Assembly (NCBI GenBank): GCA_003963115.1
Contig: RXJQ01000011.1
Location: 124,001 to 188,000 of the forward strand
Direction: 5' to 3'
Source of the DNA: Burkholderiales bacterium
GTDB lineage: Bacteria; Pseudomonadota; Gammaproteobacteria; Burkholderiales; Burkholderiaceae_C
Length of the DNA stretch: 64,000 nucleotides
Shown here: one piece after another, positions 54,496 through 59,177 of the stretch
Position numbering within the stretch: the stretch's first letter is position 1
Layout of the letters: each line of letters begins with the position of its first letter
Notes under the pieces: model-generated
What the model was told of the DNA's origin: nothing
Databases searched by the model: none
What the model saw: only the letters and a program-made list of their open reading frames with translations
Made by a program: the position numbers and the translations under genes

Positions 54496-54775
54496 CACGA
54501 CCTCCTGAGGTCTGCTGCACCGCATCAAGCCTGATCACGATCGACAGGCTAGCCGCGCAGCAGGAAACCTGGTTAGGCTCAGTGTAGGTCTGTGTCTCAC
54601 CTTGTGGTGTATCGCTTTCACGGGGGAAAAACTGGCCATCTCCGCCCTTGCAAAGCCGTGAGGCGGACCTATTTCACATGAGCCCGTTCGACCTCACTCA
54701 AGTCAGGCTTGCTGCGCCGCAACGATAATCGCATCATTGGGCCAACAGCCCTTCTCCCCACAGGATTCACCCGCC

Positions 54776-55408
54776 ATGTACACCGGTATCGTCCAAGGAC
54801 TTGGACGCGTCGTCACCCTCACACCCACCATCAGCGGCCTGCACATCGTGTTGCGCATCCCCCGCCCCTTGCTGCGTGATCTGCAGATCGGTGCCAGTGT
54901 GTCGGTTGAGGGCGTGTGCCTGAGCGTGGTCACCATCGACGACGACCTGGTCTCCTTCGATGCGATCAACGCCACGCTGGAGCGCACGAACCTGGGCGAT
55001 CGTCTTGTGGGCGATGTGGTCAACGTCGAACGATCGGCCCGCCAGGGTGACGAGAACGGCGGCCACGCCATGTATGGGCACGTGTCGGACACCGCCCGCA
55101 TCAGCTCCATTCAGTTGGACGGCCCTCGCGCTCATGTGGAGCTGCACGTGTCGGCCCCATGGCGACGCTACCTCTTCCCGCGCGGTTTTCTGTCCATCAA
55201 CGGCTGCAGCCTTACCTTGGCCGAGGCCGACGCCGAGCGCGGCTACTGCCGAGTCAACCTGATCCCGGAAACCATCCGTGTCACCAGCTTCTTTCAGTAC
55301 AAGGTCGGTGACCGGCTCAACATCGAGGTCGAACAGCAGACCCAGGTGTTGGTGGATGTGATCGAGCGGGTTATTGAACGGCAGTACACCAAGCAGGCTG
55401 GCCTCTAG
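54776..55408 (+). CDS. ribE: Riboflavin synthase (alpha subunit) or close paralogue
   Basis: The 210-residue protein has two lumazine-binding barrels. It starts MYTGIVQGLGRVV with EGVCLSV and GGHAMYGHVSD in the first, and GFLSINGCSLTLAEAD and VNLIPETIRVTSF in the second. Riboflavin synthase dismutates two lumazines to riboflavin. Other rib genes are absent here, and the GHAMYGHV loop differs from the common GH(F/L)V(S)GHVD form. A second copy or lumazine-type protein is therefore possible. No FMN riboswitch is seen upstream. Confidence 0.82.
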   Translation: MYTGIVQGLGRVVTLTPTISGLHIVLRIPRPLLRDLQIGASVSVEGVCLSVVTIDDDLVSFDAINATLERTNLGDRLVGDVVNVERSARQGDENGGHAMYGHVSDTARISSIQLDGPRAHVELHVSAPWRRYLFPRGFLSINGCSLTLAEADAERGYCRVNLIPETIRVTSFFQYKVGDRLNIEVEQQTQVLVDVIERVIERQYTKQAGL

Positions 55409-55627
55409 GCCCGCACCTTACTCGCCCGGCCCACACTCAGCCATCCTCATACCCGAAGGTGAGGGGTAGACGCCCGCACCTCCCGCCCTCCTGATGGACG
55501 ATGCTTTTGTGCATGCGGCGAGTCATGTACGCGACGCACCGAATCACCCAGGTGACAAGCAGGGCGGATCGGCGGCTCTTGACTGAAGCTGGACGAATCA
55601 GGGATACCCCCACAGGTAAACAAGACG

Positions 55628-55651
55628 CGTTCTCAACTTCCAATGAGAACG
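55628..55651. promoter_or_regulatory. Inverted repeat 1 upstream of cytochrome-porin gene
   Basis: CGTTCTC and GAGAACG are perfect 7-bp arms around a 10-bp spacer. It could be an operator or the stem of a terminator, since a pyrimidine-rich CCCTCTTCTTT follows. It lies about 215 bp before the chosen start codon. Confidence 0.5.
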
Positions 55652-55679
55652 CCCTCTTCTTTACAGAAAATTACCAGCA

Positions 55680-55697
55680 TTGACGTTGCGACGTCAA
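55680..55697. promoter_or_regulatory. Inverted repeat 2 upstream of cytochrome-porin gene
   Basis: TTGACGTTGCGACGTCAA has perfect 7-bp arms (TTGACGT/ACGTCAA) and a 4-bp centre. The size and symmetry suit a dimeric repressor or activator site. Its first six bases could also serve as a -35 box. Confidence 0.5.
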
Positions 55698-55724
55698 AAA
55701 CAAATCATGTCGTCACAACAAAAT

Positions 55725-55743
55725 AATGTGCATCGCGCACATT
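55725..55743. promoter_or_regulatory. Inverted repeat 3 upstream of cytochrome-porin gene
   Basis: AATGTGC and GCACATT are perfect 7-bp arms around ATCGC. It overlaps a possible AATAAT -10 box and the first in-frame ATG (55726). It therefore looks more like an operator than coding sequence. Confidence 0.5.
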
Positions 55744-55866
55744 TGTGATCGCACCCCGAAAAGCACATGGACGGTGAACTGCATGGTTCAACGTCCAACG
55801 CGTCTAGGTGCTTGCATCACACACAACTTCCTTACTGATTCAACTCAAATTTCTTCTGAGGGTCTG

Positions 55867-57282
55867 ATGCTCGTTTACCCACGCGTCAAAGATATCGCCA
55901 AATTCATGATGTCGATCAAATTGCCTCTCGCCACAGGGATAGGCATCGTGCTGCTTGCATCAAATGCATCGGCGCTGCCGGCTTTCGCCAGGCAAACCGG
56001 GCAGAGTTGTGTTGCCTGCCACGTTGGCGGACAGTTTCCTGAATTGACACCATATGGCCGCCAATTCAAATTAACTGGGTATACATTGGGCCAACAAACC
56101 AACCCCTTGGCCATCATGGTGGTTGCAGACTATGCCAAGACGTCGAAGAACACCGATAGCGCTGGCACCACGGTTTCGCCCTTATCAGGCAAAGCCATCG
56201 TCGACTATGCCAGCCTATTTGCCGGCGGCAGAATCACCGACAACATCGGCGCATTTGCACAAATCACATACTCGTTTCACGACCAACAAAGCAGCTCTGG
56301 TGCGTGGACAGGCCACTTGGGGTCGGACAATACCGATATCCGCTTCGCTGATCATTTGGTAGAAAATGATCAAGATCTGATTTATGGATTTACCCTTCAC
56401 AACAACCCAAGCGTGCAAGACGTCTGGAACAGCGCGCCAGCTTGGTCATATCCTTATGTTGCTGCATCGGGAAATGCGGCAGCCACTGGCGCACCACCTT
56501 ATTTGACTGCACTCGAAGGCGGCTTTGCACAACAGGTGGCAGGCCTTGGCGCCTATGCGTACTGGAATCACACCGTGTATGCCGAGTTGACGGCCTATCG
56601 CTCAACAACAGGCCCGTTGTCAGCACTGGCCATTGGCAATGCCACTGGCGATAGTGCGCACCCAAAGACATTTGTCGAGGGCTACAACCCTTATGTGCGG
56701 CTTGCCTACACAAAGGATTGGGGCAGCAACAGCGTCATGGTCGGACTGACCAGCTTCAAGATCGGCAGCTACGTCAATGACAGCAACAATAATCAACCCC
56801 AATACTCACTGGGCACCATCAAGCAAACCGATACGGCCTTGGATGCGCAATATCAGTATTTGTCTGAGCCCTACACGGCAACAGCCCAAGTTCGATGGAT
56901 TCATGAGCGCATCAGCGACCCCAACAATCTGGCCTTGCAAGACCAAGTATCTGCGTCATTGAATTCGTTCCGCACCAAGGCTTCGCTCACATACAGATCT
57001 CAATTTGGCGCAAGTCTTTCATTTTTCAATGTCAGTGGCACCTCTGACTCCAGCTACAACCCAACCTCACCCTCGACCACCGCCGTGGCAAGCGCCACAA
57101 ACTCCCCCAACACGCGCGGCTGGACGCCTGAGGCATTTTGGTTGCCAGAGCCAAATATCCGTGTCGGCCTGCAATACACCGCCTTTACCAAATACCTTGG
57201 CGAAAGCACCAACTATGACGGCGCGGGCAGAAAAGCCTCCGACAACAACACCCTTTATCTCTATGGCTGGTACGCCTATTGA
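55867..57282 (+). CDS. Cyc2-like monoheme cytochrome c fused to outer-membrane porin
   Basis: The 471-residue protein starts after GAGGG six bases upstream. The signal peptide runs to ASNASA near residue 36. Directly after it comes ALPAFARQTGQSCVACH (residues 36-52) with one heme c site at Cys48, Cys51 and His52, then FPELTPYGRQFKLTGYTLG. From about residue 80 it is a beta-barrel of alternating polar and hydrophobic strands, ending in aromatic LYLYGWYAY as outer-membrane proteins do. This build and the FARQTG motif match Cyc2 iron oxidases from memory of the family; iron oxidation itself is inference. Codon use seems less GC-rich than in neighbours, and a c4 cytochrome gene follows by 24 bp. 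Confidence 0.8.
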   Translation: MLVYPRVKDIAKFMMSIKLPLATGIGIVLLASNASALPAFARQTGQSCVACHVGGQFPELTPYGRQFKLTGYTLGQQTNPLAIMVVADYAKTSKNTDSAGTTVSPLSGKAIVDYASLFAGGRITDNIGAFAQITYSFHDQQSSSGAWTGHLGSDNTDIRFADHLVENDQDLIYGFTLHNNPSVQDVWNSAPAWSYPYVAASGNAAATGAPPYLTALEGGFAQQVAGLGAYAYWNHTVYAELTAYRSTTGPLSALAIGNATGDSAHPKTFVEGYNPYVRLAYTKDWGSNSVMVGLTSFKIGSYVNDSNNNQPQYSLGTIKQTDTALDAQYQYLSEPYTATAQVRWIHERISDPNNLALQDQVSASLNSFRTKASLTYRSQFGASLSFFNVSGTSDSSYNPTSPSTTAVASATNSPNTRGWTPEAFWLPEPNIRVGLQYTAFTKYLGESTNYDGAGRKASDNNTLYLYGWYAY

Positions 57283-57306
57283 ATTCAGCCCTCAGGAATC
57301 CAAATC

Positions 57307-57984
57307 ATGATGACCAGCAAAACAAAAGTCTTGATCTCCAGCGCGTTGATGGCTGCTCTGGGTGCTTGCGCCCCACTGGACCGATCACGCAGCCTTGAAA
57401 ACCCTGATGTGTCGGGCAAGACGTTTACCCAGCAAGCCTGTGCGATGTGCCATCAAGCCGATGGCAATTCAACATCGCCCAATTTCCCAAAGCTCGCGGG
57501 GCAATCAAAGCAATACTTGATTGACCAGTTGACTGATTTGCGTGACCACAAACGCAAGAACGAAACCAGTGCGGCGTTCATGTGGGGCATGGCCAGGCTG
57601 TCAGAGTCCCAGATTGAACAGGTGGCCGATTTCTATTCGAAACAAACCATCACGGCCGAACCCTTGCTGGCCGACCCTGACACCTTGAACTACGGGAAAA
57701 AGCTTTTCCTCGAAGGCCAGGCCGACAAAGGTGTTCCTGCTTGCGCAACATGCCACGGTCGTGAGGGCGAGGGGCTCGGCCCCATTCCTCGCCTTGCTGG
57801 CCAGCACGCCAACTACATCATTCGGCAGTTGACGGTCTTCAAGACGACGGACGATCGCCCAAGAGGTGCGCCCATGAAGTATGTCGCGCACAGTCTCTCA
57901 GAGGATGACGTCAAGGCACTGGCATTGTTTTTACAGTCCAGCCCTGGAAAGACCTTGCAGGTAGGCACGGCATCCAAGCCATGA
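57307..57984 (+). CDS. Diheme cytochrome c4-type lipoprotein
   Basis: The 225-residue protein has a lipoprotein signal ending LGAC (Cys21) with Ala next, so the Lol rules favour the outer membrane. Two c-type domains follow: CAMCH at residues 45-49 and CATCH at 146-150, with methionines near 92-95 and 190 as likely axial ligands. This is the cytochrome c4 layout. It lies 24 bp after the cytochrome-porin gene and ends at a terminator. It probably passes electrons between the outer-membrane heme and periplasmic carriers. Confidence 0.9.
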   Translation: MMTSKTKVLISSALMAALGACAPLDRSRSLENPDVSGKTFTQQACAMCHQADGNSTSPNFPKLAGQSKQYLIDQLTDLRDHKRKNETSAAFMWGMARLSESQIEQVADFYSKQTITAEPLLADPDTLNYGKKLFLEGQADKGVPACATCHGREGEGLGPIPRLAGQHANYIIRQLTVFKTTDDRPRGAPMKYVAHSLSEDDVKALALFLQSSPGKTLQVGTASKP

Positions 57985-57987
57985 AGC

Positions 57988-58014
57988 AAGGCCAAGCAAC
58001 TTGGCTTGGCCTTT
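57988..58014. terminator. Rho-independent terminator after cytochrome c4 gene
   Basis: AAGGCCAAGC and GCTTGGCCTT form a perfect 10-bp stem with loop AACTTG, starting 3 bp after the c4 stop codon and followed by TTC. The T-run is short, so the stem does most of the work. Confidence 0.75.
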
Positions 58015-58045
58015 CACCTTGACTGTTGCTGTCGCCGCCTTACTC

Positions 58046-58068
58046 AGTGCGCTCAAGGTCAGCGCACT
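58046..58068. terminator. Stem-loop after the AdeT-like gene
   Basis: AGTGCGCT and AGCGCACT form a perfect 8-bp stem around a 7-bp loop, 8 bp beyond the stop codon of the minus-strand gene. No U-tract follows, so it may protect the 3' end or weakly terminate. Confidence 0.45.
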
Positions 58069-58076
58069 CAACGTCG

Positions 58077-59177
58077 TTACTTGACGTTGGCGGCGACTTT
58101 TTCAGGCCACTCGACCTCGGCAGAACTGGTGCACTCGGCATCATTGGGCTTCATGTCGCAGCGGATGCGCTTGAGCATCTTGAGTGCCCGCTTGTCGTAC
58201 AAGCCAGCTTCGGCGATGTCCACACGGCCATCGCGCAGCATCTGGATGTAGCGCTTGAGGTCGGCGGAAGGAATGTCCATCCAGACCTTGGCAGGCAGTT
58301 CGGCTTCAGCCTTGCGGATCATCGTCATCGTGGGCTCGAACTGGGTCAGCCAGTATTGACGGGCCTTGATGCCGGCGTTGGGCGGGAACTTGGTCTTGTT
58401 GATGATGATCTGGTAGGTCAGGAAGGTCACGGGCATGCGCGAGATGGCGCCCTTGGTGCCGATGCCCTTGTACAGCTCCAGCGGCTTGTAGGCCAATGCC
58501 GGCGCGAAGATCACGTCCACCAGGCCGTTGTTGAACTTGCTGGCGAAATTGGTGATGTCGGCAGGAATGGGCTGCGCACCGATGCGCGTGATGGCCATGT
58601 TCTGGACCTTGTCGACGTCAAACGCCGCGATGCGCTTGCCGGCTGCCGCCTCCACACTGTTGATCTTGCGGTCGTTCACGATGGGATAGGCCGCGCCCAT
58701 GGGCACGATGCCGGCCACCTCGTACTTGTCCTGCACCATCATCTTGGCGGCGGCAGGCGAGGAGAAGATCTCGATGGCCTTGTGCAGGATCTCGTAGCTG
58801 GCCTCCATGTCGATCTTGCCATCGCGCTCCATGGTGGTGGCGCCCAGTGCGTCGACCGTCGCGGCAGCGAGGTTGTAGGGCTTGCTGCGGAAGGAAGTCA
58901 CGGCCATGGCATCGCACTGGCCGCTGCGGAAGTCTTCGGCGGCCACACGCTCGTCGGTGTAGGCCTTGAGCTCGATGTCGATGCCCATGTTGAGCTTCTG
59001 CATGGCCAGGACGAAGTCCTTGGCAGCCGAGAAAGCCGGGCCATTGGTGCCCACGATGTCGAATACACAGGCCGTCTGGCCGGACCAGGCCGGGGCGGCG
59101 GCGAGCAGGCTGGCGGCGGTCAAAGCCAGCAGGCGGGAACAAGGCGAAAGGGAGCGAGCGCGCATCGAAAAGTCCAT
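58077..59177 (-). CDS. Putative solute-binding protein, AdeT/TRAP-like
   Basis: The roughly 362-residue exported protein (signal SRLLALTAASLLAAAPAWSG) resembles DctP-fold binding proteins annotated as AdeT1/2-like, with VFDIVGTNGPAFSAAKDFVLAMQKL and RSGQCDAMAVTSFRSKPYN. AdeT was once named as an efflux component; solute capture is more likely from the fold. No permease genes adjoin it. It begins 120 bp after the response-regulator gene on the same strand. The ATG giving MRARSL, 12 bp inside, may be the true start. Confidence 0.72.
   Translation of the reverse strand: MDFSMRARSLSPCSRLLALTAASLLAAAPAWSGQTACVFDIVGTNGPAFSAAKDFVLAMQKLNMGIDIELKAYTDERVAAEDFRSGQCDAMAVTSFRSKPYNLAAATVDALGATTMERDGKIDMEASYEILHKAIEIFSSPAAAKMMVQDKYEVAGIVPMGAAYPIVNDRKINSVEAAAGKRIAAFDVDKVQNMAITRIGAQPIPADITNFASKFNNGLVDVIFAPALAYKPLELYKGIGTKGAISRMPVTFLTYQIIINKTKFPPNAGIKARQYWLTQFEPTMTMIRKAEAELPAKVWMDIPSADLKRYIQMLRDGRVDIAEAGLYDKRALKMLKRIRCDMKPNDAECTSSAEVEWPEKVAANVK

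Follow-up and report, generated by a model that had tools for sequence, protein, structure and literature searches.

The 64,000-nt window (the whole stretch of DNA that was analysed) contains a two-gene cassette that we read, with a probability of about 0.6, as a Cluster-2-type Cyc2 electron-input cassette, in which electrons, most likely from Fe(II), would pass through an outer-membrane barrel to a cytochrome c4. That the pair forms an electron conduit is highly probable, and Fe(II) is our best guess for the main donor. The two open reading frames lie exactly where an earlier note on this DNA had placed them (55867–57282 and 57307–57984). The features of the locus are:

54737..55408, + strand: left border, ribE-like gene, which we take from its sequence to be riboflavin synthase alpha (ribE); matches of 84–89% in genomes G002, G003, G005, and G008

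55409..58076, no strand: AT-rich cassette, inserted or exchanged; GC 0.538, against 0.644 on the left and 0.635 on the right

55867..57282, + strand: cyc2-like gene, from open reading frame and motif, with a putatively secreted monoheme cytochrome domain joined to a predicted 16-strand β-barrel; alternative ATG start at 55906

56008..56022, + strand: CVACH heme-binding motif of the Cyc2-like protein, with ALPAFARQTG before it and PEL after it

57307..57984, + strand: diheme cytochrome c4, predicted outer-membrane-anchored periplasmic electron acceptor, from sequence, PDB, and Pfam

57358..57369, + strand: lipobox LGAC of the c4 precursor, residue +2 Ala, from sequence

58077..59177, − strand: right border, convergent with the cassette, presumably a solute-binding-protein-like gene; matches of 78–91% in G002, G003, G005, and G008

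Cyc2 is composed of an AXPXFAR[Q/K][T/Y] sequence, a CXXCH motif, and PXL, fused to a 16-strand barrel, and falls into three clusters with one verified iron oxidase in each (Keffer et al. 2021, PMC8406198). The window protein carries the motif as ALPAFARQTGQSCVACHVGGQFPEL, with five residues, not four, between CXXCH and PEL. The translated open reading frame has 471 residues and a single CXXCH, in accordance with the size and heme content of Cyc2 (at least 365 residues, one heme motif). A hydrophobic N-terminus, a putative signal peptide, extends to ASNASA (leader end assigned by eye; helix at residues 7–30 in the structure model) and is followed by LPAFARQTGQSCVACHVGGQFPELTPYGRQFKLTGY; the C-terminus, WYAY, ends in a tyrosine. 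Residues C48, C51, and H52 are invariant in 107 of 107 Cluster-2-like rows (the window and a few duplicates counted). Residue M84 is kept in 102 of these rows but in only 2 of 12 Cluster-1-like rows; we therefore dropped it as a universal distal heme ligand and regard it as a candidate. At least 566 of the 596 stretches with the motif pattern, from named genomes, encode relatives. Together with the invariant heme residues and the correlation with the partner described below (r = 0.81), this argues that the Cyc2-like pattern is beyond chance.

Searches of Pfam (E up to 1) and PHROGs (E up to 0.001) give no family for the Cyc2-like protein, and in NCBIfam neither it nor the c4 protein exceeds a family cut-off. 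Sequence and profile searches found no Cyc2 among PDB sequences; therefore, there is no experimental template. AlphaFold2, given the window protein and 63 homologues (63 of 64 diverse rows used, the truncated L074 being left out), predicts a 16-strand barrel with a mean pLDDT of 85.4 and a pTM of 0.84. The heme segment, whose placement as a plug in the barrel the earlier note had named as a check, is of low confidence in this model (residues 31–39 and 41–58, pLDDT < 50). The top PDB matches in Foldseek are OmpF and chitoporin (E about 1e-9, a moderate query TM of 0.42–0.44, rmsd about 8), and the top 50, which also include OmpC, AlgE, and DcaP, range from E about 1e-9 to 1e-7, with query TM 0.39–0.44 and rmsd 7–10. 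OprO/OprP, reported as nearest to the Cyc2 of PV-1 (Keffer et al., PMC8406198), are absent from these 50. The model and the porin matches both point to the 16-strand outer-membrane barrel of Cyc2.

To place the protein among Cyc2 clusters, we computed two trees, a quick one with 124 rows and a careful one with 57 selected rows, and picked references by genomic context. The Cluster 2 reference (L150 in G701) is a Cyc2 whose gene shares its strand with cox/cta-like genes (read by eye) and a rusticyanin-like gene, the latter scoring 137 bits against a family cut-off of 146.7. The sole genome over the rusticyanin cut-off (G647) has no Cyc2 in the two stretches examined. The Cluster 1 and 3 references are Cyc2 copies of family f57, taken as Zetaproteobacteria from their motifs and near-universal Cyc2. 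The chromosomal Cyc2 of A. ferrooxidans is absent from the trees. Partial or repeat loci were left out (among them L017, L018, L020, L022–L024, L127, L133, and L135), as were L110, L111, L117, L119, L122, and L163, which have no Cyc2 motif by pattern, although all of these except L163 scored as relatives in another search.

In the careful tree, the window Cyc2 falls into a 48-row clade (support 99/97) with L150 and a homologue from an A. ferrooxidans plasmid and is separated from the Zetaproteobacteria-like rows of Clusters 1 and 3, all as defined by the context-picked references. The corresponding clade in the quick tree has 107 rows and a support of 99. The careful tree leaves the branch order at the base of the 48-row clade unfixed and carries a warning that long branches meet between the rows of Clusters 1 and 3. 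Nested in the 48-row clade is a betaproteobacterial clade that holds the window (100/99; type A hereafter). A second set of sequences, type B, forms a separate clade (99/97). Forcing the window into one clade with type B is rejected (AU test, p 3.3e-39), on which ground we reject an origin of the window gene by in-place divergence from the type B Cyc2 of its genus. By tree, the window cassette would thus be a Cluster-2-type Cyc2, as judged against context-picked references of which one is under its cut-off. The earlier note had proposed a Cyc2-family cytochrome-porin with a β-barrel and had suggested a tree and a structure prediction as checks; motif, barrel model, porin matches, and the grouping with a Cyc2 beside a rusticyanin-like gene all agree with that proposal.

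The second gene encodes a precursor with the N-terminus MMTSKTKVLISSALMAALGAC and two CXXCH motifs, CAMCH and CATCH. Over residues 36/43–211 it matches solved c4 cytochromes among PDB sequences (E 1e-31 to 4e-28), and it matches Pfam Cytochrom_C at 1.7e-20, being the only protein of the pair that Pfam recognises. It thus has the two c-type domains and the c4 homology of a c4/Cyc1 protein, and the adjacent diheme c4 with a lipobox claimed earlier is confirmed. In E. coli, lipoproteins with a +2 residue other than Asp are sorted to the outer membrane. The window c4 is therefore predicted to be lipid-anchored at the outer membrane. One of its PDB matches, 1h1o ("CYTOCHROME C-552", 4e-28), is Cyc41 of A. 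ferrooxidans (PMC10879576).

The partner is conserved in relatives. Type A comprises 77 loci, L003, L004, L006, L108, L147, and the window, i.e. 83 rows, of which 80 are distinct; the duplicates (L003 = L083, L006 = L080, L108 = L047) were taken out of partner counts but not of +2-residue counts. As most of these rows were drawn from the 80 top hits to the window, the partner figures hold for near relatives only. The trees and counts leave out three of these hits, L048 (AVPAFAAQTG), L096 (ATPVFSRQTS), and L078 (missed by the pattern). Downstream DNA of 500 nt or more is available for 77 distinct rows, the window included. In 74 of them a protein with CXXCH is encoded next, downstream of cyc2; in 73 it is diheme, and in 68 it matches a PROSITE-type lipobox pattern; c4 homology was checked for the window's partner alone. 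In the 71 lipobox rows (duplicates in), the +2 residue is Ser (25), Ala (16), His (11), Val (7), Thr (6), Gln (5), or Ile (1), and Asp in none, so that outer-membrane sorting is predicted by the E. coli rule. Of the six partner rows that lack a lipobox match, L026, L068, L069, and L095 have a near-lipobox by eye, and the partners in the basal type A rows L086 and L101 resemble ordinary secreted proteins. Three loci beyond type A (L005, L121, and L164) pair cyc2 with a diheme cytochrome that lacks a lipobox, and L007 is ambiguous. These rows suggest that cyc2 was paired with a diheme cytochrome before the lipid anchor arose.

Distances among type A cyc2 genes and among their partners are correlated (r = 0.81, 65 pairs, 0 of 2000 permutations), a value that includes shared species history. 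Partner conservation and this correlation speak against chance neighbours, a reading that we rejected. In type B (11 rows, mostly with only 1.5 kb of flank), cyc2 is followed by a monoheme cytochrome in seven (L008, L009, L011, L014, L015, L016, and L112) and by a tetraheme and a monoheme cytochrome in L010 and L113; L002 has no cytochrome there, and L013 has too little sequence.

The earlier note had called the pairing with a lipid-anchored c4 unfamiliar. This does not hold for the pairing itself, which is published for Acidithiobacillus (PMC10654088, PMC2754497) and Ferrovum (PMC10879576); the less familiar part is the lipid anchor only. The rus operon of A. ferrooxidans begins with cyc2–cyc1, Cyc1 being a c4 (PMC10654088, PMC2754497), and as in that system a monoheme cytochrome-porin is followed by a diheme c4 in the window. 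By tree, the window Cyc2 falls into one broad cluster with a rus-operon-like Cyc2, as judged against the context-picked references. Cyc1 is likewise membrane-bound (PMC2754497), but by a predicted transmembrane helix (PMC4725956) where the window c4 has a lipobox. Unlike in the rus operon, no rusticyanin (TIGR03095) matches in the window's draft genome (G000) and no cup/cox genes are seen beside the pair, whose neighbours read as ribE and a solute-binding protein; membership in a rus operon was therefore rejected.

Betaproteobacterial Cluster 2 cyc2 genes are also published (PMC11412304, PMC12285272, PMC13390463). Ferrovum, with a Cyc2-like protein and the c4 CytC-18, has a betaproteobacterial Cluster 2 Cyc2 (PMC13390463), and in Ferrovum sp. 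PN-J47-F6 cyc2 is immediately followed by a c4 gene (PMC10879576), as here. Rusticyanin was likewise not found in the acidophile Ferrovum JA12, but two c-type cytochromes of that strain are predicted to be soluble, unlike the window c4 with its lipobox (PMC4725956). Sulfuriferula and the Leptothrix–Sphaerotilus group also have a Cluster 2 cyc2, and Cyc1 is present in Sulfuriferula and several Leptothrix; the accessible portions of these reports mention neither a lipid anchor nor gene order (PMC12285272, PMC11412304). MtoAB/PioAB and MtrCAB likewise carry electrons on hemes through an outer-membrane barrel, but with a separate decaheme cytochrome and a larger barrel, unlike the fused Cyc2. A conduit of the MtoA/PioA type was ruled out here, because a family search of the draft genome gave no DmsE/MtrA-type decaheme match. 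In literature on Cyc2 combined with lipid anchors, transfer, Comamonadaceae, Burkholderia, or heterotrophs, with subscription journals mostly outside its coverage, we found neither a lipid-anchored c4 as Cyc2 partner nor a swap of Cyc2 at one slot.

We propose the following route. As an outer-membrane barrel of 16 strands, the Cyc2-like protein would accept electrons singly, on its small N-terminal heme domain, from a soluble donor outside the cell, for which Fe(II) is the most likely candidate. The c4 would be anchored through its lipid in the periplasmic leaflet of this membrane, under the barrel and in contact with it, where its two hemes would collect electrons and pass them to soluble cytochromes and on, downhill to a cbb3 oxidase or uphill to bc1. 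The route from an outside donor through a fused porin to a periplasmic carrier, as sketched in the earlier note, is thus plausible from family, barrel, and adjacent lipobox c4. The genome contains ccoN of the cbb3 oxidase over its cut-off; no oxidase or bc1 gene is seen adjoining the pair. A RuBisCO operon could consume the reducing power. The RuBisCO-large family has one match (3e-134) but also matches B. subtilis in the same search, so that the family name alone is no proof; the adjoining open reading frames read by eye as rbcS, cbbX, fbp, and prk. SoxB gives two weak matches, of 50 and 37 bits, both below its cut-off of 550. A facultatively lithotrophic host fits these genes, which fall short of proving it.

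Fe(II) is favoured as donor since the biochemically tested Cyc2 of each cluster oxidizes it, that of A. ferrooxidans being the verified iron oxidase of Cluster 2 (PMC8406198). Sulfuriferula strains with a Cluster 2 cyc2 and cyc1 grew on Fe(II) (PMC12285272). A function is considered unassignable to Cluster 2 Cyc2 without supporting context (PMC10734462). A conduit of the same kind for another donor (Mn(II), reduced organics, a metal complex, or an electrode), perhaps as side income or detoxification in organotrophs, is possible but clearly less probable. Among the matches listed, the closest homologues (51–56% identity) are from Burkholderia, Paraburkholderia, Caballeronia, Pseudomonas fluorescens, and Polaromonas, genera of organotrophs that are not known as iron oxidizers. 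A Cyc2 homologue has been implicated with a cathode in Ca. Tenderia (PMC5371394), Keffer et al. allow for further Cyc2 functions (PMC8406198), and the Burkholderia versions lie in a different, conserved gene neighbourhood. Against such a donor stand the Fe(II) oxidation by tested Cyc2 of every cluster and the RuBisCO operon of the window's genome, which fits lithotrophy.

The Burkholderia neighbourhood is found in 12 loci (L027 2–8312; by clustering also L028, L029, L031, L032, L034–L037, L040, L041, and L054), in which cyc2–c4 lies downstream of a conserved gene set. In L027, in which alone the neighbour families were tested, the set encodes a choice-of-anchor Q protein, a small secreted protein without a family, two LolA-like proteins, and a 567-residue monoheme cytochrome that matches Cytochrom_C only marginally. 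Several of these loci continue with a gene for a cytochrome c assembly protein. The set may define another electron donor. In Thiobacillus-like loci (L055 2888–7269, L056, L057, L062, and L065), a pyridine-nucleotide-disulphide oxidoreductase precedes cyc2–c4; its Pyr_redox_2 identity was tested in L055 alone, and a sigma-54-type regulator is also seen upstream by eye. The L055 enzyme, which we take to be reminiscent of sulfide:quinone reductase, hints at a sulfur link in these hosts.

The cassette occupies a chromosomal slot whose content differs within the genus. A GC content as low is found in 3 of 248 sliding windows of cyc2–c4 size, which possibly overlap the cassette itself, and nucleotide synteny with G003 ends at 55403 and resumes at 58099. 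A scan for promoters gives 2 sigma-70-like sites against 1.7 in shuffles, i.e. no excess, and there are 7 terminator-like sites against 3.3. A search of 24 same-genus genomes gives right-border orthologues, at 78–89%, in four (G002, G003, G005, and G008). G005 and G008 have an empty site, with the ribE and right-border matches ending 84 and 70 nt apart, and no Cyc2 match in either genome. In three same-genus genomes (G002, G003, and G027), a diverged Cyc2 (30–36% identical) fills the slot. That of G003 holds a type B Cyc2 (32–36% identical), a NapC/NirT tetraheme protein (PF03264, 3e-64), and a c550-like monoheme protein; the NapC/NirT family is often tied to reductive systems. In G002, ribE is followed by a type B Cyc2 and the contig end. 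In G027 (81% complete), one contig has ribE and the start of a type B-like Cyc2, and another has the remaining Cyc2, tetraheme, and monoheme genes adjoining the right-border gene. G020 and G031, of the same genus, have type A cassettes located elsewhere, with no match of the tested flanking genes within 19.5 kb. The window's own genome has a second Cyc2-like gene (contig C28 65310–66644; L166 9793–11148), which is the type B row L002, is 38% identical to the window Cyc2, and has no cytochrome gene directly downstream.

Since the slot types belong to separate clades, a whole electron-input module looks to have been replaced. These sequences are most simply read as the exchange of one Cyc2 module for another at one fixed position, accompanied by losses, or alternatively as independent insertions. 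Mobile DNA that was acquired recently, is hardly used, and has no function in the host would also account for the low GC, the empty site in two relatives, and the patchy distribution (a match to the protein in 12 of 36 same-genus genomes, one a C-terminal fragment), but we consider it unlikely: both open reading frames are intact, the partner is conserved with matched divergence in relatives, and the other-type Cyc2 in the slot of three relatives suggests selection for function there.

Nine plasmid records hold a relative. Those of Acidithiobacillus (L146 7890–9257, A. ferrooxidans plasmid CP084173, adjoining a transposase gene) and Acidiphilium (NC_009469, NC_015179) are 32–33% identical to the window protein, and that of a Paraburkholderia plasmid (L147) is 54% identical. 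Plasmids are a likely route of spread.

Electron export, from the lipid-anchored c4 outward to Fe(III) or another outside acceptor, could be entertained because flow direction is not legible from sequence and the G003 slot carries a NapC/NirT protein, but it is very improbable, given the high measured potentials of c4 (about 240–510 mV; table in PMC10879576), a single Cyc2 heme suited to soluble one-electron donors, and the lack of a DmsE/MtrA-type match in the window's genome; ImoA, a NapC/NirT member, serves iron oxidation (PMC13390463).

The two-gene cassette thus looks like an outer-membrane wire of a kind known from iron oxidizers, probably drawing electrons from dissolved iron. Apparently new, within the literature covered, are a predicted lipid anchor on the c4 that usually accompanies a Cyc2 clade and the probable exchange of Cyc2 modules at one slot. 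We tentatively suggest, at somewhat less than even odds, that Cyc2 systems are exchangeable modules of a barrel and a dedicated periplasmic partner, moved or replaced as a unit. In one betaproteobacterial lineage, c4 would have turned into a lipoprotein held beneath the barrel, and the two would form a stable outer-membrane complex with no need of a diffusing rusticyanin, and one slot in the genus would hold the c4 module, a NapC/NirT-type plus monoheme module, or nothing. Cyc2 serves as a marker of iron oxidation, and two questions attach to it: by what path electrons exit from it, and whether the Cluster 2 homologues of common soil and water bacteria oxidize iron. The conserved, apparently lipid-tethered c4 offers a testable physical partner for Cyc2, and sister species with module A, module B, or none offer a natural comparison for Fe(II) oxidation.
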